This document shows positions 160-62,471 of a DNA stretch of 64,000 bases, in pieces. Source of the stretch: Chthoniobacterales bacterium (GTDB lineage: Bacteria > Verrucomicrobiota > Verrucomicrobiia > Chthoniobacterales > UBA6821); NCBI GenBank assembly GCA_019747895.1, contig JAIEQF010000001.1:1-64000 (forward strand), given 5' to 3'. How positions within the stretch are numbered: position 1 is the stretch's first letter; each line of letters begins with the position of its first letter. The notes beneath the pieces were generated by a model, which worked only from the letters and a program-made list of their open reading frames with translations, had not been told where the DNA came from and searched no databases. Position numbers and translations under genes: made by a program.

Positions 160-475
160 CAATCGTTTATATTCATTTTCTTGCCCTGCTGCCTGCGCCC
201 GAGCTGCTTGCTGTCACAACTCCGATGCTTGTGCGCAAAGTTCTACCGCTTCTTTATACATGAGTGCAATACCACTCTTTCCTTCTTCTGCTTCTGCTGC
301 TTTTGCTTGATAGTCTGCTTGACGTTGTAATGATATGCCTGACTGTTGCCAAGATTCCTGCTCCAGTATATTGTAATGTCCAGTTTCTATCCGTTGCGCA
401 GATTGTTGACACAGCTCTGATGCTCGTTCTAAGAGTGATGCTACTTCCTTATACCGTCCTGCAAGTTTATTCTTC
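160..475 (-). pseudogene. Frameshifted continuation of the coiled-coil repeat gene
   Basis: The gene at 467-4321 stops at a TAA just inside a repeat unit. Shifting frame near 475-480 restores the repeat: GKNKLAGRYKEVASLLERAS, then a second unit with ADYQAKAAEAEEGKSGIA and YKEAVELCAQASEL. An in-frame TGA at 214-216 follows, after which reading can continue as QQAARAQAAGQENEYKRLY up to the IS256 fragment. So the 3' end holds one frameshift, one nonsense codon and a transposon junction. A single-base assembly error could explain the frameshift but not the other two lesions. Confidence 0.8.
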
Positions 476-3400
476 CCTGGCCTCTATCGCTTCTGCCTCT
501 TTTGCTTGGTAATCCGCTTTTTTTTGTAGGTGCTCGCCTGAATAGCTATACATTTCTTTTTCATTTGGTAGTTTCCAAGTGCTTATTAGTATAGCAGCTT
601 TTTTAAACATTTTTGATGCTCGTTCTGAGGTTCCCGCTGCTTGTTGATATCCATTTGCAAGTTTACTCTTTCCTGCTTCTGCCGCTTCGACCTCCTTTAC
701 ATGGTAATACGCCTTCTTTTCTAGTGAACCTCCTGATTTTTGATAAAGAAGCCGACTGCTTGTGAGCAAGGTGTTTTCCACTAGAATAGATTTTTTAAAC
801 AATTCTGCTGACTCTTTTAAAATTTCTACTGCTTCTTGATACCCTTCTGCTAATCTAATTATTCCAGCTTCTGATGCTTCTGCTGCTTTTACTTGGTAGT
901 TTGCTTGTTGTTGTAAGAATTTAATTGAAAGTTGGATGTCTTCTGCATAAAAAGATTGCCCAAAAGATGGTTGCCAAGCTAACTGTTGTTCTAAAATCAT
1001 TACTGCTTTTCGATATCCTTCTGCTAGTTTGCTCTTCCCTATTTCTGTTGCTTCTGCCATTTTTGCTTGGTAGTCTGCCTTTTTTTGCCAAGATTCACCT
1101 TTAAGTTTATCCGAAATTGCTGTTTTAAGGTTAAATCTAGACTCTAGTACAACTGCACTTTTAAACAGCTCTGATGCGTGTTTTGAAGTTTCTGCTGCTT
1201 GTTGATAACCATTTGCAAGTTCACTCTTTCCTGCTTTTATTGCTTCGGCAGCTTGTAATCTATATTTTTGAGTGATACCTTCTGATTGAAATAATGATGC
1301 TTCGTTTACAACATTATATATGGTTGTCCAAAAAGATAAAGGTTGAGAAATTTTCTTTGTAGCTTGTTCTAGTTTTTGTTGAATCTGAAAATATCCTTGA
1401 GCTAGTTCCTTATTGCCGCTCAATTTTGCCTCCATCTCTTGGAGCTTACATTCCAGATTAAGCCTTACCAAGTTGGCTGCTAGTTTCTTTCTTTGATTTT
1501 CCCATAACACTTCATTCTCACAAGATATATATGTTTCTGAATTTTCTTCCCACATCATGTTATTACTCTCACAAAATATGTATGTATCAGCATCTTTTTT
1601 CATTTGTTCTATTGCCTTCCTATATTCATCCTGAGTTTTATTGTAAGCCATAACAAGGTCAACCTTAGAAAGTTCTTCCACTTCAGAAATTTCTTTAGCT
1701 ATTCTAACAATCTCTTGAGCAATATGAGCAGACAACGAAGCCTCTTCTGGTCTACAAATAAGAGAAGCAAGCTCTGTAATTTCTGTTAATTTTTTTGTAG
1801 TGTTAGCAATAATGGGAAGAAAAAATTTTCCTGCATTCTCCATATTAGTATACATTATATCAACGCCAACCCCAGATGCCATCCCGCATGGAATAATCAG
1901 TACAGGATGTAAAGGTGCACACACCAGACCTCCCAAAAATGAATTAATAGTAACATCAGGGCGTGGGATAGGCATGATAATTGGTTCGACGATAGCACAA
2001 GCTATTTTATTAGCTTCTTTAGCAACCTTGATAGCATCACTCGTTAGTTCATCAGCATTACAATCAATAGGTAAAGGATAGTTTCTATATCTATATTGTT
2101 GAACCTCCATAGCCTGAGAACACGCATTGAGATTTGAAATTAACCTTTTCAAAACAGGAATAATGGATTCCATTTTTCGAAATTTAGAAAAAATATCTAT
2201 ATCTTCTGGTGCTGTTTCACTGTTTAAAGACTGCACGATCTCATTAAACTGACTCCAAGTTACACTAACTGGAGCACAAGAAGATTCTACTATTGTAAAG
2301 TTGGGCTGAATCTCAGTTTTTCCCACTACTTGAGCCTTATTTTGGATTTCTTGGGCTATTCTTCCTAAACCTACAGCCATCCAAGCAGCTCGATCAGCCT
2401 CAACTTGAACCTCAGCTGTTTTAAAATCCATGGATTCAAAAAATATTTTTTTATCACTTTTCCCTTTAGCATTTCCTTCTTCCTTTAATTCTTTCAAAAG
2501 TTCTTCCGACTGGCGCATTCTCTCTCTCCAAGCAGAAGCTGCTATCGTAGTTGCCCAGCAAGGATCTTTCCTTCCTTGAGTATCAATTTGAGCAACTAAT
2601 TTTGGAGAACGTAAGTTATGTAACTTGGTAAATAAAGTAGTTAAATCCCTCTCAACAACAGGGTTTGCCCAATTATTCCAAGCACTATCCAGAGGGTTAC
2701 CAAAAATATCATTGCTACCTTCTACCAACTTACTAACAGGTGGTTTGAGAGCTTCTGCGATCTTCCTTGTTCTGTCAGCAATATTACTAAGGTCCCATTC
2801 TTTATAACTGTCTTGGATAGGGTCACTGTACTCTTTCAAAGTAACACCCAGCACAGGTATTGTAGTCTCTCCAAAACGGTTGCCCCAATGTTGGGCCTTA
2901 CAAATCATGTCAGTCTCCTGGCGATCAGCAATAGCAAACTCATAGATTGCCCTTTCCATTTTAGACAGTTCTTCATCTTTTTTTTCAAGTTTTTCAAACT
3001 TTTCACAATGCCCTTCAAAAATATCATTCAACTTTTTGGCGTCTAAAGAGGTTATAAATTCATAAGAACTTATAGAGCTAGGAAATAATCGTTCAACAAC
3101 CTGTTCTGAATATTCGCTCTCAAGCGCCTTCCTTAAAGCTGCAGTGATCTTTATGTTCTCCTGCCTATTACTACTATCATCCACAACTGCTTCTTGAGGC
3201 TGGATAAAATTACGGTTTTCCTCTTCCCTAATAATGAAGCGTGTAGCAATAGGATGATCAATAGCAGCACGTCTAAAATCCTCAAGTCTCAACGGCTCCG
3301 GAGCAGCATGTCCTCCAATAATCATATTTGCAGCTATCACCACTGCTATTATTATTTTTCTCAATGAGATACCAATGTTTCCTCTTTCACTGTTTTGGAG

Positions 3401-4321
3401 CGGATTGGCAATAAAATTTCTTAAATTTTCAAGTTTTAAGACTGCATTTGAGTTTGAGTTATGTTCTTCTCTCTCTGCGATGCCATCTCCTTGGCTTAGG
3501 TCTCCACGAGAAGCAAGGCTCGAGCGATTTTCTGAATCATCTTCATGCTCGTAATGAGGGTAGGAAGAGTTGTGCCACTTGTTAGTATCCTTATCCCCTT
3601 TCCCTTTATTTTTAACAAGTCCCTCTCGACCCAACATCATTAGAGGAGAAATCTGAAAAGGCATAACATCATCAGGCTGGGTAGTAATTGCAAAAATAGT
3701 CTCCCCATTTTGATTCTCTTCGTTCTTTGCCAGATGATACCTAGCTTTGGAGTTGGTCGATACAACCTCATCACCACGTAATTCGTACGATCCTACTTCC
3801 GTACTGGTGATTGCTTTTTCACCAGCGTCTTTTCTCGTGAGGCACCTATTTTCAACCCAGTTGCAAAATCTCATGGCATCTAACTTGGTGAGGCCAAGCA
3901 TGGGTTTGTCCTCTTCTTCGTCAACAGCAAAAAAGTTCCAATGACCATCCTCTTTTGCTTTCTTCATCAACTGATTTGCCGTTCTAGAATGATAAAGCTC
4001 ATGCACATCTGTCGTTGTTGCAACAGCATTTAGAAAAGCCCCATAATCGTCAACCGTGGTAATATGGGCTTCTGAAGACTCATCGCTTTCTAATAAAGAA
4101 ACATCATTTGACACTAATGAGCTTGAGATTGTCTTGTTATCAAGGTCTCCTGGCTGTTCAAGCTGTCCAATATTTTGAGTAGAGTTGTTATCAATGCACC
4201 AAGTAGCGCTCAAATCAGTTTCACAGCTTGTTTTCAGAGCTGCTGAGTTATCTTGAGCTACAAGCAATCTAGTGCTTTGCAATAAAACAACTAACAGAAA
4301 GAGAAGTTTGGTTTTTCTCAT
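467..4321 (-). CDS. Large secreted protein: FGE-like N-terminal fragment plus long coiled-coil repeats
   Basis: This 1284-aa protein has no recognised function. Residues 1-22 form a signal peptide (lysines, then LLFLLVVLLQ). Residues ~85-200 resemble the N-terminal part of formylglycine-generating-enzyme (SUMF1) domains: YGAFLNAVA, HELYH, KLDAMRFCNWVENR, EVGSYEL. The rest of that domain, including the active-site region, is absent. A motif SPLMMLGREG and a low-complexity acidic linker follow. A second signal-peptide-like stretch (RKIIIAVVIAANMIIGGHAA) lies near residue 320, suggesting that two secreted proteins became fused. The C-terminal half is helical, with about five degenerate repeats of ~70 residues (KADYQAKxAEAxEAGKSKLA, then GYQQAAxxxxxASELFKKA). 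The reading frame is broken at the 3' end. It may be an exported structural or host-directed protein; that is inference. Confidence 0.7.
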   Translation of the reverse strand: MRKTKLLFLLVVLLQSTRLLVAQDNSAALKTSCETDLSATWCIDNNSTQNIGQLEQPGDLDNKTISSSLVSNDVSLLESDESSEAHITTVDDYGAFLNAVATTTDVHELYHSRTANQLMKKAKEDGHWNFFAVDEEEDKPMLGLTKLDAMRFCNWVENRCLTRKDAGEKAITSTEVGSYELRGDEVVSTNSKARYHLAKNEENQNGETIFAITTQPDDVMPFQISPLMMLGREGLVKNKGKGDKDTNKWHNSSYPHYEHEDDSENRSSLASRGDLSQGDGIAEREEHNSNSNAVLKLENLRNFIANPLQNSERGNIGISLRKIIIAVVIAANMIIGGHAAPEPLRLEDFRRAAIDHPIATRFIIREEENRNFIQPQEAVVDDSSNRQENIKITAALRKALESEYSEQVVERLFPSSISSYEFITSLDAKKLNDIFEGHCEKFEKLEKKDEELSKMERAIYEFAIADRQETDMICKAQHWGNRFGETTIPVLGVTLKEYSDPIQDSYKEWDLSNIADRTRKIAEALKPPVSKLVEGSNDIFGNPLDSAWNNWANPVVERDLTTLFTKLHNLRSPKLVAQIDTQGRKDPCWATTIAASAWRERMRQSEELLKELKEEGNAKGKSDKKIFFESMDFKTAEVQVEADRAAWMAVGLGRIAQEIQNKAQVVGKTEIQPNFTIVESSCAPVSVTWSQFNEIVQSLNSETAPEDIDIFSKFRKMESIIPVLKRLISNLNACSQAMEVQQYRYRNYPLPIDCNADELTSDAIKVAKEANKIACAIVEPIIMPIPRPDVTINSFLGGLVCAPLHPVLIIPCGMASGVGVDIMYTNMENAGKFFLPIIANTTKKLTEITELASLICRPEEASLSAHIAQEIVRIAKEISEVEELSKVDLVMAYNKTQDEYRKAIEQMKKDADTYIFCESNNMMWEENSETYISCENEVLWENQRKKLAANLVRLNLECKLQEMEAKLSGNKELAQGYFQIQQKLEQATKKISQPLSFWTTIYNVVNEASLFQSEGITQKYRLQAAEAIKAGKSELANGYQQAAETSKHASELFKSAVVLESRFNLKTAISDKLKGESWQKKADYQAKMAEATEIGKSKLAEGYRKAVMILEQQLAWQPSFGQSFYAEDIQLSIKFLQQQANYQVKAAEASEAGIIRLAEGYQEAVEILKESAELFKKSILVENTLLTSSRLLYQKSGGSLEKKAYYHVKEVEAAEAGKSKLANGYQQAAGTSERASKMFKKAAILISTWKLPNEKEMYSYSGEHLQKKADYQAKEAEAIEAREE

Positions 4322-4672
4322 AGCGGGATATGTTGATTCTTTTTTTAGGTCACGAGCAAGATAAAACTTTTTAAAAAAAAGTTTGAACGTTTTCTATATT
4401 AGAAGTGTCAAACCGACTCGTAAGATAAAACTTTTATTTGACATTAACGGATTCCGTTAGATATTCAAAAAAGAAGGTTAGTCGTTATTCATTTAAAATG
4501 AGCCTACCGATTTACAACACTCACGCAGGAGACAAAAGCGATGGACTCGTTTTTGGCATGGAGGTAGGGAATTTCTTTTTCATTATTGCTGGAGCTGCCA
4601 TCTCTATTTTTTTCTCGTTTGTCAGCCATAATCTTCATCCTGACTCGGAACTTGGATCGCTAGTGATTTGTT
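4322..4672. other. Spacer with possible plus-strand promoter and palindrome
   Basis: This is the AT-rich upstream region of the large secreted gene. It contains a direct repeat of AAGATAAAACTTTT (4360s and 4423-4436). At 4437 TTGACA is followed by AACGGA-T-TCCGTT, a perfect 6+6 palindrome, and then TATTCA, which resembles a sigma-70 promoter with an operator in its spacer. Downstream on the plus strand is an ATG at 4498 opening a 66-codon frame with one hydrophobic stretch (GNFFFIIAGAAISIFFSFV). No family is recognised and the frame may be fortuitous. The minus strand may hold further degraded debris of the adjacent FGE gene, but I could not match it. Confidence 0.3.
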
Positions 4673-5141
4673 CTATTCCCATTCTGAGACATAAGTAACC
4701 GGAAAGGAAGCTTTGTCAGGATTGTCGTTGTATAGTGTATTAAATTGAAAAGGGCACGCCATAAGCTTGCTCTTTTTCCTTAGGGCTACGTTCTCAGATT
4801 TTACGTTATCTTCGGATAGCGTCTCAATCTTCGGCCTTGCCCTAAGAAAAAATTTCTGCGCCTTTAACGCGCCCTTTTCAATTTAATACACTATAAGTGT
4901 AACTTCCAGGCTTTCCCGAACGAGTGATAATAGAACCGATGCCTGCATCCTCTCCCATTTTTGGATTATAGACGCCATAAGTATCTGTTGCTGCAACGCA
5001 ATTCAAGAACTCGGTGTAGTCCGAAACGCTAACAACAGACTGGGGTCCAGCAGGAGGAGCTTGTTGAGAAAAGAGAGTGCTTCCAAAAAATGAAGTGGTA
5101 GCAAGAAGGGCTAAGAAGAATTTTTTTTGAGGAAAAGTCAT
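4673..5141 (-). pseudogene. FGE-like secreted protein gene interrupted by a small palindromic element
   Basis: The protein begins with a signal peptide (FPQKKFFLALLATTSFFGST). The N-terminal FGE block follows: VSDYTEFLNCVAA, YGVYNPKMG, SIITRSGKPGSYTY. Reading then enters the element at 4731-4895, which supplies SVLN and a stop. If the element and one copy of the duplicated TA are removed, reading continues exactly in frame as NDNPDKASFPVTYVSEWE before a TAG at 4673-4675. FPVTYVS matches LPITYVN in the intact paralogue at 5299-6324. The gene was therefore already short, or was truncated again after insertion. It should be treated as a pseudogene. Confidence 0.8.
4731..4895 (+). mobile_element. 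MITE-like element A (core I, TA target duplication)
   Basis: The element is about 165 bp and non-coding, with perfect 25-bp terminal inverted repeats starting TATAGTGTATTAAATTGAAA and flanked by a duplicated TA. This is the hallmark of IS630/Tc1-mariner-type mobilisation. No transposase is present. The interior carries the core I module in plus orientation: a hairpin CGTTATC-TTCG-GATAGCG, the block TCTTCGGCCT, and an enclosing stem (CCTTAGGGC paired with GCCCTAAG). The same interior occurs in elements B and C under different termini. It splits the FGE-like gene on the minus strand. Confidence 0.88.
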
Positions 5142-5298
5142 GGGGGATTGGGCTAAAATTCATTTTAAAATTTTATTTTAAAATTTGCAAAAAATCTTCA
5201 TCTCAGATGTTTCAAGCACATCGAGATTAGGAAATAGCGAGGGCTAATCGAGCCAGACAAGACTAAGGATGCAACTCGCTCACTTCCGGAAAAAATCT

Positions 5299-6324
5299 CT
5301 AGTTGCTCCAAGGCCACCACCAACTCGATTTAGGCGCTGGTTGTTTTGCCGGCACATTATAAACCACACGGAACCCAGTAGTGCTACTGCTAGTATTAGC
5401 ATCGACAAAGGAAACGTGCGAGAAGCGGAGATCTTGATAATTTTTCGATGCCCAAGAACCACCACGAACAACAAATTTAGTAGGGTCACTAACAATAGCA
5501 GCTGTGGTCCATTGATTAACATTTCCAGCCATATCATAAGCACCGCAGGGACTTGCTGAGTTAATAAATGTTCCAACGGGAGTCAGGCGCGGTTGCGTTG
5601 CTGTGGTGAAGACCCCATTCAAGCAATAATTGGCTTCATTAGGAGCATCTGGAGTGAGAAGGCTATTTGCAGGAGGAGCAAAGCTTGCAGTTCCAAAGCT
5701 ATAGTAGTATGGAAAATTTCCATTTTTAGCTGGTTGGTAATAGGCTGCTTTGTACCATTGATTTTCGGTTGGAATATTCCATTTGGAGTTTGTAACTAGC
5801 TCGAAAACTCCTTGAACATTCCGATTATAAGCTCCACTTTCGGTTGTTCCTACTGTTTCTTCGCCAACTGGCTGGCCATTTTCTAGCCAATTGCAAAATC
5901 GAAATGTCGAAAATATATTGACATAGGTAATCGGAAGTTGTGCGCAATAATCACTAATAGGTTGGTAAGAATAACCAGTCGTCTCATCTCCTGAACGCGT
6001 GATGCACGCAACATCAGGATCATTGCTCATGTTTTCATTATAAAGTCTGTGAGGGTCACTTTTGCTAGCGACCGCATTTAAAAACGCACAATATTGTTCC
6101 GCCGTAACATCATATTTTCCAATTTGATAACTTGTTGCTACCGATCCAAAACTGATTTTTCCTGGGGCTAATGGAATATCCTTGGTGTTATTAGGATCAC
6201 CCACAGGAACAAGATCAATGGTAATTTTGTTAGCAGTGGCAGATGAATTTTCTTGTGCGAAGAGAGGGTGACTTAACAGACAAACTACTAAAGCAATTTT
6301 TAAGAAAAAAGAATGCTGGTTCAT
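5299..6324 (-). CDS. Secreted formylglycine-generating-enzyme-like (SUMF1 domain) protein
   Basis: This 341-aa protein has a signal peptide (FFLKIALVVCLLSHPLFAQ) followed by an essentially complete FGE-sulfatase domain. Visible blocks are the beta-sandwich start (VPVGDPNNT, IGKYDVTAEQYCAFLNAVA), ITRSGDETTGYSY, LPITYVN, FRFCNWLENGQP, WNIPTENQWYKAAYY, CGAYDMAGNVNQW, VVRGGSWASK and TGFRVVYN. FGE proper oxidises a sulfatase Cys to formylglycine, but many bacterial members of this fold lack that chemistry and the Cys pair cannot be assigned here. No sulfatase gene is visible. It is the only intact member of a local family whose other members (4321, 5141, 36044 and 62471 regions) keep only the N-terminal third. 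The tail KSSWWWPWSN is unusual. Confidence 0.85.
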   Translation of the reverse strand: MNQHSFFLKIALVVCLLSHPLFAQENSSATANKITIDLVPVGDPNNTKDIPLAPGKISFGSVATSYQIGKYDVTAEQYCAFLNAVASKSDPHRLYNENMSNDPDVACITRSGDETTGYSYQPISDYCAQLPITYVNIFSTFRFCNWLENGQPVGEETVGTTESGAYNRNVQGVFELVTNSKWNIPTENQWYKAAYYQPAKNGNFPYYYSFGTASFAPPANSLLTPDAPNEANYCLNGVFTTATQPRLTPVGTFINSASPCGAYDMAGNVNQWTTAAIVSDPTKFVVRGGSWASKNYQDLRFSHVSFVDANTSSSTTGFRVVYNVPAKQPAPKSSWWWPWSN

Positions 6325-10054: not shown

Positions 10055-11143
10055 TTATTCTGTAACCGCCCGTCGTAAGCGATCCATAATGGCGCAACCA
10101 ATCCCCTCCTCTGGGATAGGCTCTACAACAAGTGATGTTACATCGCTCTCATCCAGTCGCCGCAAAGCGCCATAAAGATTGGCGGCAGCTTCTTTGAGAT
10201 CACCGGAAGAGCTTAAAATCTCGATGGCACCAAATCCTTCTCGAGTTTGAGAGAAAGCAAGCAGGCCGATTTCTTTTGAAGGTGTTTGTAAAGAATCATG
10301 CCACGATAATTTTTTGCGTGGCGCATAATGACTTTTTAAAGATCCGGGTGCTTTGCCATGGATTGATTGGTTCATCACTTTTCCAAATGATGAGAGTTTT
10401 TCTGCCGTGATCGGTCCAGGTCGTAAAATTTGTAATAAAAGACCTTCTTCCAAACTCGCTGATAGAGATGCAGTGGAAGGAGCCTCCGGCGCACAGCGGC
10501 TGAGTGTATAGTTAATACTCGATGACGCGAGCACCGGAGCGACACCGCAATGCGCTCTATCAGTAGAGTTTCGAAGAAGGTCTTCATGAGGCCAGACAAT
10601 CGTTGACTCCAGACCATGATAGCACGGGCCGCCGTCGACGATGAGTAGAATTCTCCCATCGAGCTCTTCGTGGACATCAGCAGCCGTTGTCGGACTGATG
10701 CGTCCAAAACGATTGGCGCTAGGAGCAGCGAGTGGTAAATCAAGTTGCTGTAAAATTTTTCTAAAAACCGGATGAGCTGGAACACGCACAGCCACCGTTT
10801 CCAAACCGGCAGTGACTAAATCAGGAATCGTAGTAGCTCGCGGCAGGAGCAGCGTCAAAGGGCCAGGCCAAAAGGCTTCTGCAAGCTGTTCTACGAGCTT
10901 TTTACATTCAGGCGTCAAGCTAACAACCCGATCGAGCCAAGAAACATCGAGGAGATGGACAATCAATGGATCAGAGAGCGGTCGCTGCTTGGCTTCAAAA
11001 ATAGAGGCGACGGCTTTGGAAGAAAAAGCATTTCCTGCGAGGCCATAAACCGTCTCGGTCGGAAGGGCCACAACTTCTTCTTTTTTTAAAAGAGCAACAG
11101 CAGCAGTGATGCCTGGCTCTGCTGGTAGCAACAATGTTTTCAT
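10055..11143 (-). CDS. tsaC: Threonylcarbamoyl-AMP synthase (Sua5/YwlC type) with in-frame insertion
   Basis: The 362-aa enzyme forms threonylcarbamoyl-AMP for the t6A37 tRNA modification, acting with TsaD encoded at 19004-20026. The YrdC domain is clear ([55 protein letters not shown]). A linker and a Sua5-type C-terminal domain starting near [12 protein letters not shown] follow. Between GLESTIV and [11 protein letters not shown], which are nearly adjacent in normal family members, lie about 47 extra residues (roughly 188-235). They are encoded by a palindromic repeat element on the opposite strand (10441-10582). The frame is intact and no catalytic motif is lost, so the protein is probably functional. 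Its ATG overlaps the end of purE by 4 bp. Confidence 0.93.
10441..10582 (+). repeat. In-frame palindromic element (core II), copy in tsaC
   Basis: The 142-bp element has matching inverted ends GACCTTCTTCCAAACTC and GAGTTTCGAAGAAGGTC. It shares its interior with the copies at 15447-15589 and 57382-57525 (GGCGCACAGC, ACGCGAGCACCGGAGCGAC, CAGTAGAG). The internal hairpin GAGTGTAT-agtta-ATACTC differs from the other copies at both arms, preserving pairing. Relative to its host gene it is inverted, so tsaC is read through the complementary strand ([22 protein letters not shown]). No stop codon results. Confidence 0.9.
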
Positions 11144-14833: not shown

Positions 14834-15754
14834 ATGCCTCATCCCCGAAAAAAAGTCATTGCTGCCAATTGGAAAATGAATCTCACTTCTAGTGAGGTGA
14901 AGCCTTATCTGGAAACATTGCTTCTAGAAACTCAACAGGTCGAAGGAATCGATATCGTTTTGATTCCTTCTTTTACCTCGATTCCTAAAGCTTCGGAGCT
15001 TTTAGAAAAAACACCAAAGGTACGTCTAGGTGCTCAAAATTTTTCCGCTCATGATAAAGGAGCCTTTACCGGTGAGGTCTCCGCTAGAATGCTTCGCGAT
15101 CTTTTTGTTCGCTATATTCTTGTAGGCCATAGTGAGCGACGTCAGCTCTTTGGTGAAACAGATCAGATCGTTCATGAGAAACTTCTTGTAGCTCATCGCA
15201 ATGAATTTCGTCCGATCCTCTGTGTTGGAGAGACTTTGGAAGAACGTAAAGCAGGAAAAGCAAAGCAGGTGTTAGAAAATCAACTAAAAGTGGCCCTGGC
15301 CGACTTATCTGTTGAAGACCTTGCTGATACGATTATTGCTTATGAGCCTGTCTGGGCCATTGGAACAGGTTGCACCGCCACGACAGAACAAGCGAGCGAG
15401 ATGCATCATTTTATTAGGGAAATGATCAAGGATCTCTCAAGCAAAGGGCCTCTTTCAAAACTCGCTGCTGGTGATGAGAGGCAAGGAATCGACGGCGCAC
15501 AGCAACTGAGTGTACAAGAGGTACTCAATGGCGCGAGCACCGGCGTGACGCAGCCTATCGCGTCAGCAGTAGAGTTTGGCAAGAGGTCCAAGGAAGTTGC
15601 TGCTAAAATTCGATTGATATATGGTGGTAGTGTCACGCCGGCCAATGCGTGCGAGCTTTTAAAATCTCCCGATATCGATGGTGCCCTCGTTGGTGGTGCT
15701 AGTCTTGATCCACGCGCTTTTGCTGAGATTGTGAAAGCAGCGGCGACAGCCTAA
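14834..15754 (+). CDS. tpiA: Triosephosphate isomerase with in-frame insertion
   Basis: The 306-aa enzyme interconverts dihydroxyacetone phosphate and glyceraldehyde 3-phosphate. Catalytic motifs are complete: NWKMN (Lys14), VGHSERR (His) and AYEPVWAIGTG (Glu), with the phosphate loops YGGSV and GALVGGASL. Typical TIM is about 250 aa. The excess is one block at roughly residues 205-252 between HHFIREMIKDLSS and KEVAAKIRLIYGGSV, encoded by a palindromic element (15447-15589). The site is in a surface helix-loop before the YGGS strand, so activity is plausibly retained. It is last of the gap-pgk-tpiA run. Confidence 0.95.
   Translation: MPHPRKKVIAANWKMNLTSSEVKPYLETLLLETQQVEGIDIVLIPSFTSIPKASELLEKTPKVRLGAQNFSAHDKGAFTGEVSARMLRDLFVRYILVGHSERRQLFGETDQIVHEKLLVAHRNEFRPILCVGETLEERKAGKAKQVLENQLKVALADLSVEDLADTIIAYEPVWAIGTGCTATTEQASEMHHFIREMIKDLSSKGPLSKLAAGDERQGIDGAQQLSVQEVLNGASTGVTQPIASAVEFGKRSKEVAAKIRLIYGGSVTPANACELLKSPDIDGALVGGASLDPRAFAEIVKAAATA
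15447..15589 (+). repeat. In-frame palindromic element (core II), copy in tpiA
   Basis: The element is about 143 bp with ends CCTCTTTCAAAACTC and GAGTTTGGCAAGAGG, extended by CTGCTG/CAGCAG inside. It contains the conserved GGCGCACAGC, the hairpin GAGTGTAC-aagag-GTACTC (15508-15526), GGCGCGAGCACCGG, and a TGACGC/GCGTCA inverted pair near its right end. It is in the same orientation and reading frame relative to its host gene as the copy at 57382-57525, giving the shared peptide pattern PLSKxAAGD, LSVQEVLxGASTG, ASAVEFGKR. Confidence 0.9.
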
Positions 15755-21695: not shown

Positions 21696-21831
21696 TTAAC
21701 CACAAAGTAATAAAAAAAGAGAAGAAGAGAATAGCCACAAAAGAACACAAAGAACACAAAGAGAAAGATTTTTTGTGTGTTCTTTGTGTTCTTTTGTGGC
21801 TATTTCTTTTTTAAAATTCTTTGTGGTTAAC
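21696..21831. repeat. Nested CACAAAG palindrome
   Basis: Two nested inverted pairs fill the nadC-hemB spacer. The outer pair is TTAACCACAAAG with CTTTGTGGTTAA. The inner pair is ATAGCCACAAAAGAACAC plus further AACACAAAG units with the exact inverse. There is no gene inside. Confidence 0.8.
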
Positions 21832-22835: not shown

Positions 22836-22967
22836 TTAGCCACAAAGAACACAGAAAAATAAGAAAATGGCCACAAAAGAACACAAAGAAAAAAATTATC
22901 GATTTAAAAATAGATTCAATTTTATAAAAATCTTTTTTTGTGCTCTTTGTGTTCTTTTGTGGCTATT
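22836..22967. repeat. CACAAAG palindrome
   Basis: TTAGCCACAAAGAACACAG and ATGGCCACAAAAGAACACAA precede an AT-rich centre. TTGTGCTCTTTGTGTTCTTT, continued by TGTGGCTA, closes it. It occupies the hemB-glmS spacer. Confidence 0.8.
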
Positions 22968-22974
22968 TTTTTAA

Positions 22975-30167: not shown

Positions 30168-30308
30168 GAGGGTGTCTTGAAAAAGGCTAAAATAGCGCAT
30201 TGCGGCGTCACTCCGGTGCTCGCGTCCTCGAGTATCACTTATACACTGCGGGTCTGCGTACCTCGTTCCTGGCACTGCATCAATTTTATTCATTTTCAAG
30301 ACACCCTC
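30168..30308 (-). mobile_element. MITE-like element D: core II interior with IS5-like termini
   Basis: The 141-bp element has perfect inverted repeats GAGGGTGTCTTGAAAA flanked by TTA on both sides, a 3-bp target duplication as in several IS5-family groups. Its interior, read on the minus strand, matches the gene-borne core II copies: CGCAGTGTATAAGTGATACT, then ACGCGAGCACCGGAGTGAC and GCCGCAATGCGCT. The left duplication lies downstream of the thioredoxin gene's promoter side. The right TTA is the stop codon of the holin-like gene. Confidence 0.87.
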
Positions 30309-32586: not shown

Positions 32587-33145
32587 GGACTACGCCACTT
32601 ATATTTCTAATCAAATTGAATGGAAGCAAAAACTCGAAGACGAAAGCAAAATCAAAAAATAATTTTTTATATATAGTCAAATTACTTAGAAATTACAGGG
32701 AAGAACGCAGGAATTTTTAGAAAAGGCCAGGCCGAAGACCGAGCGCTATCTAAACGATAACGTGACGGGATGAGAACGCAGTCTTTTCCTAAAAAGGACA
32801 AGTCAGTTGCTTGTAAGTTCTAAGTAATTTGACTATAATGAACTGGCACCAAAATTAACAAATTACGGAACCGACTCCTCGACGCCACCTTTTGACCCCT
32901 TTTCAATCTTTCAAGGTTCAAGTAGAAAATTTTTAAGCATACCTTCCAAGAAAAACGCTTTATTTGAGCTACAATGGGCCTCTGTTAGGTGGGGTGCTGT
33001 GGTCATAGCACCCGATTGAGAAGCCACTACTTTCATCAAATCATTCAGATAATCAATCTGTTGCTAAGAATATTTTCTTCCTTCTGTATCAGTCTCTCAG
33101 GGATTTTCTCTGTAGAAAACTTCAAATTTTTCCTCATTCCGGCAG
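32587..33145. other. 559-bp spacer: element B1 and a strong hairpin
   Basis: This region holds no credible gene. It contains element B1 (32672-32837). Near 32976-33020 CTCTGTTAGGTGGGGTGCT pairs with AGCACCC. The GTTAGGTG-plus-hairpin start recalls the M-box (Mg2+) riboswitch, but later M-box elements are not recognisable and no plus-strand gene follows. Confidence 0.4.
32672..32837 (-). mobile_element. MITE-like element B1 (core I)
   Basis: The 166-bp element has inverted repeats TATAGTCAAATTACTTAGAA and TTCTAAGTAATTTGACTATA and a TA target. The interior carries core I in minus orientation: hairpin CGTTATC-GTTTA-GATAGCG, TCTTCGGCCT and CTGCGTTCTCA. It differs from B2 (35859-36024) at two positions only, so movement was recent. 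No transposase is present. Confidence 0.92.
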
Positions 33146-35695: not shown

Positions 35696-36019
35696 AGGCT
35701 TCAGAGAATGGGCACAAAGAGCCCAAAGAAATCAAAGAAACAAGAAAAATAGCCACAAAAGAACGCACGAAACTCAAAAAAAATTTGTGCTCTTTGAGGC
35801 TAAATCTTTTTTCTCTCAGCTATTCATAAAATTAATTCTTATGCCCCCGCTGAACAGCTATAGTCAAATTACTTAGAAATTACAGGGAAGAACGCAGGAA
35901 TTTTTAGAAAAGGCCAGGTCGAAGACCGAGCGCTATCTAAACGATAACATGACGGGATGAGAACGCAGTCTTTTCCTAAAAAGGACAAGTCAGTTGCTTG
36001 TAAGTTCTAAGTAATTTGA
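35696..36019. other. Spacer with CACAAAG repeats and element B2
   Basis: ATGGGCACAAAGAGCCCAAAG and AATAGCCACAAAAGAACGCA precede a degraded inverse arm (TTTGTGCTCTTTGAGGCTA) at 35710-35802. Element B2 then runs to 36024. There is no gene. Confidence 0.6.
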
Positions 36020-36024
36020 CTATA
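35859..36024 (-). mobile_element. MITE-like element B2 (core I)
   Basis: The second 166-bp copy of family B has the same TATAGTCAAATTACTTAGAA termini. It differs from B1 at two positions (a C/T change in the AGGCCGAAGA block and a G/A change next to GATAAC). Its right end lies directly before the coding sequence of the FGE-fragment gene and contributes an in-frame TGA, removing that gene's original start. Confidence 0.92.
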
Positions 36025-36916
36025 CACACTCTCTTTATTATTTTTGGTTCTCTGCATTCCTCACCTCTCCTTTGCAAGTGATGATGATCAAGAACCAACT
36101 TCTTATGAGGCTCATCTCCTCAGTATCAAAGAATATTGCAGGTGTTTGAAGGGAGCTGCCTCCGCAGAAGATTCCTATCGCCTCTACGATATGGAAACGA
36201 TGAGTCGAGAAATTCTTCAAACTGCATCTCCTGAAGATCAGCATCCTCATTTTCTTTATTCCGTCGCAGAGGATATTGATCCGAAAAGCCCGATGTTAAA
36301 CCTTACAGAACTTGATGCCATGAGGTGTTGTAACTGGATAGAAACTTCTCTTCCTTCGAGTGATAATACGCCACCAAATACGGAAGTAGGTTCTTACATA
36401 TTACATGAAGATGGGTCGTTTGAAGTCAATGATGCCGCTCAGCTTCATCTGGTTCACCACGACGATGGGACTTTTGAAATCATCAGTAGCGTTAAGAAGA
36501 CAACTTCTCCTTTAATGATGCCTGGCTTGGAGAAAACAGATGGCAACAAGGGGAAATGGGTGCGGCTATTTCCTGATATAGGAAGTGAAACCACAGCCAA
36601 CCGCAGAGAGTATGATCGTGTAGATGACCAATACGGATCTTCGTCTCCGCAGAATCGTAGCATTCCTATGAATATTACGGTTCCATCGCTGTCCAACATC
36701 GTTCATAACGATAACTTCGACGACGACTCTTTGATTGGTCATACTGGTAATGCTCATCAAGAGGGAAGCTATATTGCTATCAAAGATCATCTCTGGTGCC
36801 TTCCCGAGATAATCAAAGCTTGTCTTAGGTCACAAGAGGATCGAGACCTGATGGCACAGGCACGTCAAAAAATAAGAAATCCTTTTGGCGTTGGTGATAG
36901 CTCGAGCAAAAAATAA
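36020..36916 (+). CDS. FGE-fragment secreted protein with start region lost to element B2
   Basis: About 290 aa remain. The frame opens right after a TGA inside element B2 and reads YTLSLLFLVLCIPHLSFA, the hydrophobic core and cleavage region of a signal peptide without its Met and basic N-terminus. The only start candidate is TTG at 36044, which leaves a very short signal. The mature part matches the N-terminal block of the 1284-aa protein: EYCRCLKGAA, SYRLYDMETM, SPMLNLTELDAMRCCNWIE, TEVGSYILHEDG and TTSPLMMPGLEK followed by GNKGKW. The C-terminal half has no recognised domain. The gene is probably inactivated or poorly exported. Confidence 0.65.
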   Translation, partial: LYTLSLLFLVLCIPHLSFASDDDQEPTSYEAHLLSIKEYCRCLKGAASAEDSYRLYDMETMSREILQTASPEDQHPHFLYSVAEDIDPKSPMLNLTELDAMRCCNWIETSLPSSDNTPPNTEVGSYILHEDGSFEVNDAAQLHLVHHDDGTFEIISSVKKTTSPLMMPGLEKTDGNKGKWVRLFPDIGSETTANRREYDRVDDQYGSSSPQNRSIPMNITVPSLSNIVHNDNFDDDSLIGHTGNAHQEGSYIAIKDHLWCLPEIIKACLRSQEDRDLMAQARQKIRNPFGVGDSSSKK

Positions 36917-41595: not shown

Positions 41596-42162
41596 TTATT
41601 TTGTGTTCTTTGTGCTCCGCTTTAGCGGCTTTGTGATCTTTGTAGTGAATTTCAGCTTCTTTGAATCATTCCAGAGCGACTCCAGATCGTAAATCTCACG
41701 CAACTCTTGATGAAAAATATGAACAATAATGTTTCCAAAATCGATGACGATCCATCGGCTTCCTGGATAAGCATCATCAGCATGTGGAGGAATACCCTTC
41801 TCCGTCCGCATGCGATCTCGAATGGAACTTGCAACCGCTTTAATCTGTGGTTCTGAAGAGGCAGAGACAATGACAAAAAAATCGGCAAAGGAAGAGATCC
41901 CTCGCAAATCCAAGATGATAGGATCCTCTGCTTTTTTATCCAGAGCTGCCTCAACGCAGAACCGAGCTAGCGCCTCTTCAGCATCTATGTCTTTAGGAGT
42001 TGTTGCTTTTTTGACAACTGCTTTTCTAGGAGTTGCTTTTTTAACAACCGTTTCTTTAGCAGTCGCTTTTTTAACAACCGTTTCTTTAGCAGTCGCTTTT
42101 TTAACAACTGTTTTTTTAGCAGTCGCTTTTTTGGTAGAGCTTTTTTGTTTTAATGTAGTCAT
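41596..42162 (-). CDS. rsfS: Ribosomal silencing factor RsfS with lysine-rich N-terminal repeats
   Basis: The RsfS domain (residues ~65-170) binds uL14 on the 50S subunit and blocks subunit joining in starvation. Its blocks are ILDLRGISSFADFFVIVSAS, IVIDFGNIIVHIFHQELREI and YDLESLW. It is preceded by ~60 residues of 10-mer repeats (KKATAKETVV) encoded by 30-bp tandem DNA repeats, giving a highly basic tail like that of histone-H1-like proteins. The C-terminus (KFTTKITKPLKRSTKNTK) is read from a CACAAAG-type repeat. The start overlaps nadD by 47 bp. Confidence 0.92.
   Translation of the reverse strand: MTTLKQKSSTKKATAKKTVVKKATAKETVVKKATAKETVVKKATPRKAVVKKATTPKDIDAEEALARFCVEAALDKKAEDPIILDLRGISSFADFFVIVSASSEPQIKAVASSIRDRMRTEKGIPPHADDAYPGSRWIVIDFGNIIVHIFHQELREIYDLESLWNDSKKLKFTTKITKPLKRSTKNTK
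42005..42140. repeat. 30-bp tandem repeat inside rsfS
   Basis: About four copies of a 30-bp unit (GCTTTTTTAACAACCGTTTC followed by TTTAGCAGTC) encode the KKATAKETVV decapeptides. Copy number may vary between strains by slippage. Confidence 0.85.
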
Positions 42163-57230: not shown

Positions 57231-58458
57231 ACAACTTTTTGAAACAATCCCTGAGCTCCTGCATGCCAAGGAGCCTCATTTCACCCCTCCTTTTCCGGGA
57301 AGTGTTGTCAAACTGATTGAACCTGAAGGAGCTTTTTGCAAACAGCATGGTTCTATTGTGCCACTGATTATCTTTCGTCATGAACCTCTTTCAAAATTCG
57401 CTGCTGGCGATACAGTGCTAGGAGCTTCCGGCGCACAGCGACTGAGTGTACAAGAGGTACTCGATGGCGCGAGCACCGGAGCGACGACGCAATGTGCGTC
57501 AGCAGTAGAGTTTGGGAAGAGGTTCAATGGAAAGCCGGTAGGACGAATCGCAGCCATCATCAACCGCTCTCACAATAGTTACAACAAGGATCGCGTTGGA
57601 TTTTTTGGTTTCTTTGATTTCATCAATGATCCAGCTGTTGCTAGAGCCTTAGTAGAAGCTGCTGCCAAGATCGTCCAACAAGAAGGAATGACCTCCTTAC
57701 GCGGTCCCTACAATCCTTCGATCAATGATGATTGCGGCGTGTTGACGGAAGGATTTCATGCTCCTTCATTTGTTTCCATGCCATGGAACCCTCCCTATTA
57801 CGAATCGCTTTACAAGCAAGCAGGCCTCGAGTCCGTGAGAAAGCTCTATGCGTGGATGATTCCTTTGCAACGAGAGACACCAGAACGTGTGAATAAAATC
57901 GTTCAACGCTTGTACAAGCGTGCCAAAGTAACCATTCGGACATTGGATATGAAAAATTTAAAAAAGGAGATGGAGATCATTCATCGCCTTTACAACAGAA
58001 CGCTTGATCGCAACTGGGGTTTTTATCCGATAGCACTTGATGATCTCCTCCACGCTGCAGACGATTTAAAAGCCATTGCTGATCCAGGATTGATTCTCTT
58101 TGCTTGTGCAGAAGGCCGAGAAGTGGCTTTCAGCCTCTCTCTTCCTAATGTTAATGAGCTCTTCCATGCAGCGCGAGGCCGCAAAGGAATTTTGCGTTTT
58201 CTAGAAATGGCGTTGCGCATTCAATTTCAAAGACCAAAGGATGCCCGTCTGTGTGTCCTTGGTGTTGATCCTGAATACCGAGACAAGGGTTTGAGTGCGC
58301 TTCTTTTTTATGAAGTATTTGTCCGAAAGAAGGCCAAGTACGAACGCTCCGAGGTCTCTTGGGTGGAAGCGAATAACACCGAAATTCTCGAAGGAGCCGA
58401 ACTGATGGGCGGCCATCGCGATCGGACTTATCAAATTTTTGAGAAAAATTTAGTTTAA
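57157..58458 (+). CDS. bcerS: GNAT-fold acyltransferase, probable bacterial ceramide synthase, with in-frame insertion
   Basis: The 433-aa protein overlaps spt by 74 bp. It starts with FSILPCKSKTDRQLFETIPE and AKEPHFTPPF. The GNAT-like core reads KPVGRIAAIINRSHN, FFGFFDFINDPAVARALVEA, LRGPYNPSINDDCGVLTEGF and ending blocks LCVLGVDPEYRDKGLSALL with VEANNTEILEGAELMGG. The position between spt and a reductase matches bCerS of Caulobacter-type ceramide pathways (inference by context). Between FRHE and NGKPVGRIAA lie ~47 extra residues (76-122) encoded by a palindromic element (57382-57525). Without it the protein has the usual ~385 aa. Confidence 0.75.
   Translation: MIPSTHNQAADATFSILPCKSKTDRQLFETIPELLHAKEPHFTPPFPGSVVKLIEPEGAFCKQHGSIVPLIIFRHEPLSKFAAGDTVLGASGAQRLSVQEVLDGASTGATTQCASAVEFGKRFNGKPVGRIAAIINRSHNSYNKDRVGFFGFFDFINDPAVARALVEAAAKIVQQEGMTSLRGPYNPSINDDCGVLTEGFHAPSFVSMPWNPPYYESLYKQAGLESVRKLYAWMIPLQRETPERVNKIVQRLYKRAKVTIRTLDMKNLKKEMEIIHRLYNRTLDRNWGFYPIALDDLLHAADDLKAIADPGLILFACAEGREVAFSLSLPNVNELFHAARGRKGILRFLEMALRIQFQRPKDARLCVLGVDPEYRDKGLSALLFYEVFVRKKAKYERSEVSWVEANNTEILEGAELMGGHRDRTYQIFEKNLV
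57382..57525 (+). repeat. In-frame palindromic element (core II), copy in the GNAT gene
   Basis: The 144-bp element (48 codons) has inverted ends GAACCTCTTTCAAAATTC and GAGTTTGGGAAGAGGTTC. The internal hairpin GAGTGTAC-aagag-GTACTC is at 57444-57462, GGCGCGAGCACCGGAGCGAC follows, and a GACGCA-atg-TGCGTC hairpin lies on the right. The orientation and reading frame are the same as in tpiA. Confidence 0.9.
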
Positions 58459-58501: not shown

Positions 58502-58578
58502 AATAGCCACAAAAGAACACAAAGAGCACAAAGAAAATAATATCCTTTTTGTGCTCTTTGTGTTCTTTTGTGGCTATT
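58502..58578. repeat. CACAAAG palindrome
   Basis: AATAGCCACAAAAGAACACA with AAGAGCACAAAG is followed, after ~16 bp, by its inverse CTTTGTGTTCTTTTGTGGCT. The hairpin ends 20 bp before the GTG of the reductase gene. Confidence 0.85.
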
Positions 58579-58597
58579 CTTTTTTACTTATTATCCT

Positions 58598-61937: not shown

Positions 61938-62471
61938 TTAATTTCCGCTACCGCCATTAGATCCAAATCCCCACGTACTGCCACAAGGAGGAGCAGGATT
62001 CTGTCCCGAATGATTGTTATTAGGAGGATTATAAGCTTGAGCCATACAGTGGCCTCCTACACCAATTTGACCAGAATGGTCACCAGCATGATTACGAGGA
62101 TCAAAACCTGGAGGAGCATCTTGTTTAATAATTAAAAGACGATTGTTTAAATCATCTAGACCATTTTGATTTTCATCACTCAACGTAACGAGTTCATCTT
62201 CTTTGCCAGGAACTACCGAGTAGCTATAACCACTAGAAGTTTTTGACTGAGTAATGATGTCTGACATGCTTTCATTGTAGAGTCCGCTGGTATCTTGAAC
62301 GGATGCTACAGCAGTCAGAAGTTCAGTGTATTTACTTGCTACTACTTGAGACGGCTGAGGACTCGAGTCAGCAGCTGCATTTGCCTTTAAAACAGAGGTG
62401 CTGAACAAGACTGCTACAGCAGTAATGCTCATTGCAAAGAAACATCTTTTTGAATAATTAATATACTTCAT
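61938..62471 (-). CDS. FGE-fragment secreted protein
   Basis: The 177-aa protein has a signal peptide (CFFAMSITAVAVLFSTSVLKANA). A short match to the N-terminal FGE block follows: SKYTELLTAVASV, SGLYNESMSDIITQSK, SGYSYSVVPG. The catalytic part is missing. The rest is Asn/Gly-rich (YNPPNNNHSGQN, GFGSNGGSGN) with two cysteines. It is the fourth local member with only the FGE N-terminus. It looks like a complete gene with normal ends, so the fragment may have a use of its own. Confidence 0.72.
   Translation of the reverse strand: MKYINYSKRCFFAMSITAVAVLFSTSVLKANAAADSSPQPSQVVASKYTELLTAVASVQDTSGLYNESMSDIITQSKTSSGYSYSVVPGKEDELVTLSDENQNGLDDLNNRLLIIKQDAPPGFDPRNHAGDHSGQIGVGGHCMAQAYNPPNNNHSGQNPAPPCGSTWGFGSNGGSGN

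Follow-up and report, generated by a model that had tools for sequence, protein, structure and literature searches.

A short repeat within an FGE-like reading frame

In the 64,000-nucleotide stretch of DNA analysed here (the window), an FGE-like reading frame is interrupted by a short repeat, element A, which raises the question of whether a mobile element has disrupted a working gene at this locus or has landed in sequence that was already incomplete. The range under which the insertion was first described, 4673–5141, is the entire interrupted frame and not the element. We assign a probability of about 0.93 to the explanation that element A is a MITE that inserted at a TA, which was duplicated, with an IS630 transposase likely acting in trans, and that its target was a truncated duplicate of an FGE-like gene.

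Element A proper occupies positions 4733–4893 (161 bp), or 4731–4895 (165 bp) with both flanking TAs, its borders being fixed by comparison with empty sites. It carries a perfect terminal inverted repeat of 25 bp, TA counted (TATAGTGTATTAAATTGAAAAGGGC), at 4731–4755 on the forward strand and 4871–4895 on the reverse strand, and each end, read inward, contains stop codons in all three frames; the interrupted frame terminates inside the right terminal inverted repeat (...GSYTYSVLN*). Being short, non-coding and bounded by terminal inverted repeats, with no transposase frame of its own, the element has the make-up of a MITE. As a single strand it folds strongly (−39.1 kcal/mol versus a shuffle mean of −14.3 kcal/mol, z = −8.6), and one terminator-like and one promoter-like match fall within it, although these are consensus matches and weak evidence; both features might suggest a hairpin kept as a regulatory RNA, terminator or promoter whose position here matters. 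We consider this very unlikely because an Rfam search of 4500–5300 returned two weak matches, both far under their gathering scores, with no family reaching its own, and because the element lies within a defunct gene fragment and its copies are scattered and lineage-specific.

Empty sites and TA duplication

The two flanks were joined with one TA and compared with the genomes of the genus, every genome compared being a draft assembly. In the source genome itself (G000, a 2.06-Mb draft in 55 contigs), the joined flanks aligned with a paralogue on contig C50 that carries no insertion, in a gapless match of 288 nt (98.3% identity, E 7e-142), with a single TA where the window has two, at 4731–4732 and 4894–4895. 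Orthologues of the C50 gene in two congeneric genomes are likewise uninterrupted and have the TA, one on G005:C125 (87% identity over 297 nt) and one on G002:C34 (78% over 174 nt, or 72% with gaps over 320 columns). These three counterparts bear out the insertion at the site proposed in the preliminary description and its definition of the empty site: once the element and one TA are taken out (163 bp, a length not divisible by 3), GSYTY reads on in frame into NDNPDKASFPVTYVSEWE, and the arrangement that would have spoken against it, an element at the same place in an intact but differently framed gene, was seen in none of the three homologous sites, all of which were empty. The further claim that the joined frame proves TA duplication was right about the duplication but not about the proof, which the window by itself could not provide; the duplication is demonstrated because there are empty sites outside it. 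The joined flanks thus reconstruct a genuine empty site whose TA was duplicated on insertion, and their match is far beyond chance.

An alternative interpretation is that the locus is an assembly artefact, in which unrelated flanks were joined across a repeated 165-bp element or a strain variant of C50 was mixed in. Identical copies of element A do lie on three contigs of this 55-contig draft (the window, C50:9341–9505 and C30:19814–19978), but both flanks belong to a single collinear stretch of 288 nt containing one TA, an arrangement that a mis-join between loci would not produce, and the window copy is distinguished from C50 by several base differences and by its outer flanks; we regard an artefact as extremely unlikely.

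Among 36 joined sites compared (35 element copies and the insertion sequence described below), informative matches spanning the junction were obtained at four. Besides the window site, the copy at C50:9341 has an empty site with one TA in G005:C125, and G003 copy L158 has a third, inside a repeat family. For G002 copy L128, the counterpart in a G000 repeat has CA and lends no support to TA, the two repeats being well diverged; copy L143 matched nothing but itself. Of the 38 near-full copies that were tallied, 31 have TA at both ends; the set numbered 41 before the degenerate L153, L156 and L157 were left out. Partial copies, the two from G004 (L161 and L162) among them, were below the length limit for inclusion in that set, and G002 contributed 17 retrieved copies of its 22 full-length places among the matches listed.

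The interrupted sequence

On C50 the gene is uninterrupted, with 1026 codons encoding a three-module FGE-like protein, with FGE-sulfatase matches in the later modules and a sub-threshold FGE match in its first 235 residues. Homology between it and the reverse strand of the window starts at about 5136 and ends at 4686, while the C50 gene continues for more than 900 further codons. The fragment therefore covers only about codons 3–98 of that gene, in a 5′ part at 4896–5141 (start codon, signal-peptide-like leader and the start of a half FGE module) and a 3′ part at 4686–4730, and its protein is 94% identical to that of C50 over 99 residues. Just past the homology breakpoint, a stop at 4673–4675 (reverse strand) closes the joined frame at 101 codons; these 101 residues matched no Pfam family at E up to 1, PF03781 (FGE-sulfatase) included, and the sequence past the breakpoint (4322–4690) is unrelated to C50 and, among the six genus genomes, was found in its own genome only. 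With homology lost at 4686, a joined frame of only 101 codons and no match in Pfam, the target is a 5′ fragment: the interrupted sequence is a copy of the three-module FGE-like gene cut short after its first ~98 codons.

The view that removal of the element restores an FGE-like gene is thus not supported. That a working gene was disrupted at this locus is nonetheless the reading invited by the continuous frame after removal and by a plausible leader and ATG at its start. We judge it extremely unlikely because the joined frame stops at 101 codons with homology lost at 4686 and no Pfam match, because the intact relative is located elsewhere, on C50, and because, of five codons at which the fragment and C50 differ in the stretch compared, four are amino-acid replacements, a pattern expected under relaxed constraint, although the number is tiny. 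We caution that a continuous frame after removal of an element need not imply a broken functional gene.

The preliminary alignment of the joined sequence with the gene at 5299–6324 (reverse strand) captured a true relationship (38% identity over 65 residues), but this neighbouring full-length FGE-like gene (PF03781) is a distant paralogue, and the sister copy is the gene on C50. The closest named relatives of the neighbour are from Verrucomicrobia lake metagenome assemblies, and its orthologue in G005, inspected for an empty site, lies between acs-like and sua5-like genes with no fragment alongside. A literature search joining Spartobacteria, freshwater genomes and formylglycine found no papers. 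Half FGE-like modules of about 100–150 residues also occur at or near the N terminus of several otherwise different predicted exported proteins of the genus, often large ones (for example, at 467–4321, 36098–36430 and 62181–62441 of the window).

The most probable sequence of events is that a partial duplicate (about codons 3–98) of the first FGE-like module arose, the intact version being that on C50, and that element A then inserted at a TA of this fragment and duplicated it, so that duplication would have come first and insertion second. The element was likely moved by a transposase of the IS630 family that acted in trans on its 25-bp ends. Insertion closes the frame within six codons because of the stops in all three frames at each end, and it was probably without cost to the cell because its target was already a truncated copy.

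Distribution of element A

Element A has five near-full places in G000 and was matched in all six genus genomes, with the many dispersed copies typical of a MITE, whereas outside the genus, of 32 further relatives, one gave a match, weak and partial. The 20-base end, sought with up to two mismatches, was present in eight of 387 genomes of the phylum, a sample in which the other four known genus members are absent: multiple hits on both strands occurred solely in two genus members and the other six genomes had one hit each, compared with two genomes hit among the 387 by the reversed control pattern. The exact 25-base end was not found in IMG/VR viral contigs, and a search of plasmids with element A in distant mode gave no matches. 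The family is thus common in this lake genus of Verrucomicrobiota and nearly absent elsewhere. Three G000 copies are identical and identity averages 98.8% among 17 G002 copies, whereas G000 and G002 copies are on average 87.7% identical to each other; high identity within genomes set against lower identity between them indicates bursts that were recent and, by this measure, separate in G000 and G002.

A candidate IS630 partner

A 918-bp insertion sequence at G000:C54:33567–34484 encodes PF01710 and PF13358 in two overlapping frames and matches NF033545 (IS630). The HTH_Tnp_IS630 frame (130 residues) and the DDE_3 frame (193 residues) overlap in the region of eight consecutive A residues, at which frameshifting or slippage may join them. 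Its ends are shared with element A, being equal at 25 of 27 positions at one end and 24 of 27 at the other, and beyond them the two have no notable similarity; because only the ends are shared, element A did not arise from this insertion sequence by simple internal deletion. The shared ends are consistent with mobilisation of element A in trans, and since the candidate partner is in the same genome, transposase and ends are directly testable.

The C54 transposase had no match in G001, G003 or G004 (three of the six genus genomes, all incomplete drafts), though all six carry the element, and the best match in G005 reached only 34%. The best IS630 match in G002 (L166, on G002:C24) is interrupted, with in-frame stops and a split of about 125 bp at ~1952–2078; the ~125-bp sequence inserted there has one TATAG-type end. 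More distantly, a Neochlamydia IS630 relative has 52% protein identity to the C54 transposase, and one of its ends begins TATAGTGG. Among the five plasmid relatives examined, those of Neochlamydia and Rhabdochlamydia have TATAGT-type ends, that of Synechocystis has a partial one, and those of Conchiformibius and Magnetococcus have no convincing ends.

Comparison with known elements

Element A is best viewed as an IS630-type MITE of the usual sort, set apart by how clean its empty site is. With IS630 insertion sequences such as that on C54 it shares TA ends and common terminal repeats, but it lacks the transposase. RUP of Streptococcus pneumoniae, a TA-inserting MITE with IS630-like ends (PMC2229807, PMC3049150), is described as similarly small, with TA, stops in all frames and a position sometimes within genes, and IS630-Spn1 has been proposed as its mobiliser in trans, as an IS630 element is proposed here. 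Unlike element A, RUP is 107 bp long, has a 9-bp contiguous terminal repeat (PMC2229807) and belongs to Streptococcus, the two being compared by description. According to one passage of PMC2229807, similarities between the ends of bacterial repeats and insertion sequences had, RUP excepted, been neither sought nor found. The hupL MITE of Ca. Thiomargarita nelsonii interrupts a gene described as incomplete even apart from the MITE, as here, but it has 10-bp direct repeats and belongs to a different family. A single paper, on Thiomargarita, was found to treat Verrucomicrobia, miniature inverted repeats and IS630 together.

The ends also resemble those of the Correia elements of Neisseria (CREE/NEMIS), which are described as ~107 and 155 bp long with TA at their ends (PMC2229807, PMC3049150). 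The ~155-bp form is close to element A (165 bp) in length, and both have long inverted repeats and TA ends; the long form, like element A, has stops in all frames. Comparison of the ends alone with four published Correia variants (from the methods of PMC5039591) gave 18 of 20 identical terminal bases for two and 14 of 20 for the other two, and when the first TA was set aside, none of 2,000,000 random AT-rich 18-mers matched as well. Correia elements are found in another phylum, and outward promoters have been reported for them. It is conceivable, if on balance doubtful, that element A and the Correia elements form one TATAGTG-ended class served by one IS630 transposase subgroup across Verrucomicrobiota and Chlamydiota; if so, the C54 insertion sequence and its Neochlamydia relative would serve to model the partner that moves Correia elements autonomously. 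The locus offers a clean filled and empty MITE pair in an uncultured freshwater genus of Verrucomicrobiota, and a candidate for the autonomous IS630 partner is present in the same genome.

Other repeats in the window and genus

Several further repeat families were observed. A ~140-bp in-frame repeat, resembling Rickettsia palindromic elements and probably of more interest than the insertion of element A, occurs in either orientation within housekeeping genes (TsaC/Sua5, triosephosphate isomerase, a GNAT-like gene and homoserine dehydrogenase), at 10443–10585, 15449–15591, 57385–57527 and, in part, 30187–30247 of the window, and at G000:C50:14511–14649. Of the 24 G000 copies examined, 18 are contained in open frames of 200 codons or more; G000 and G005 have about 40 matches each (the best 40 of 110 and the best 40 of 96, respectively) and the other four genomes fewer. 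Element A copies L128 (G002:C91) and L158 (G003:C8) are apparently nested in copies of this repeat. A second family of 166 bp, 98–99% identical among 32672–32837 and 35859–36024 of the window and L067:4942–5107, has ends of the form TATAGTCAAATTACTTAG... and is apparently another TA-ended MITE. A tandem 15-bp array at 41972–42151 of the window appears to encode a putative lysine-rich repeat, and an AT-rich palindromic repeat with CACAAAAGAACACAAAG motifs is present at 21736–21811, 22899–22974 and 58510–58585.
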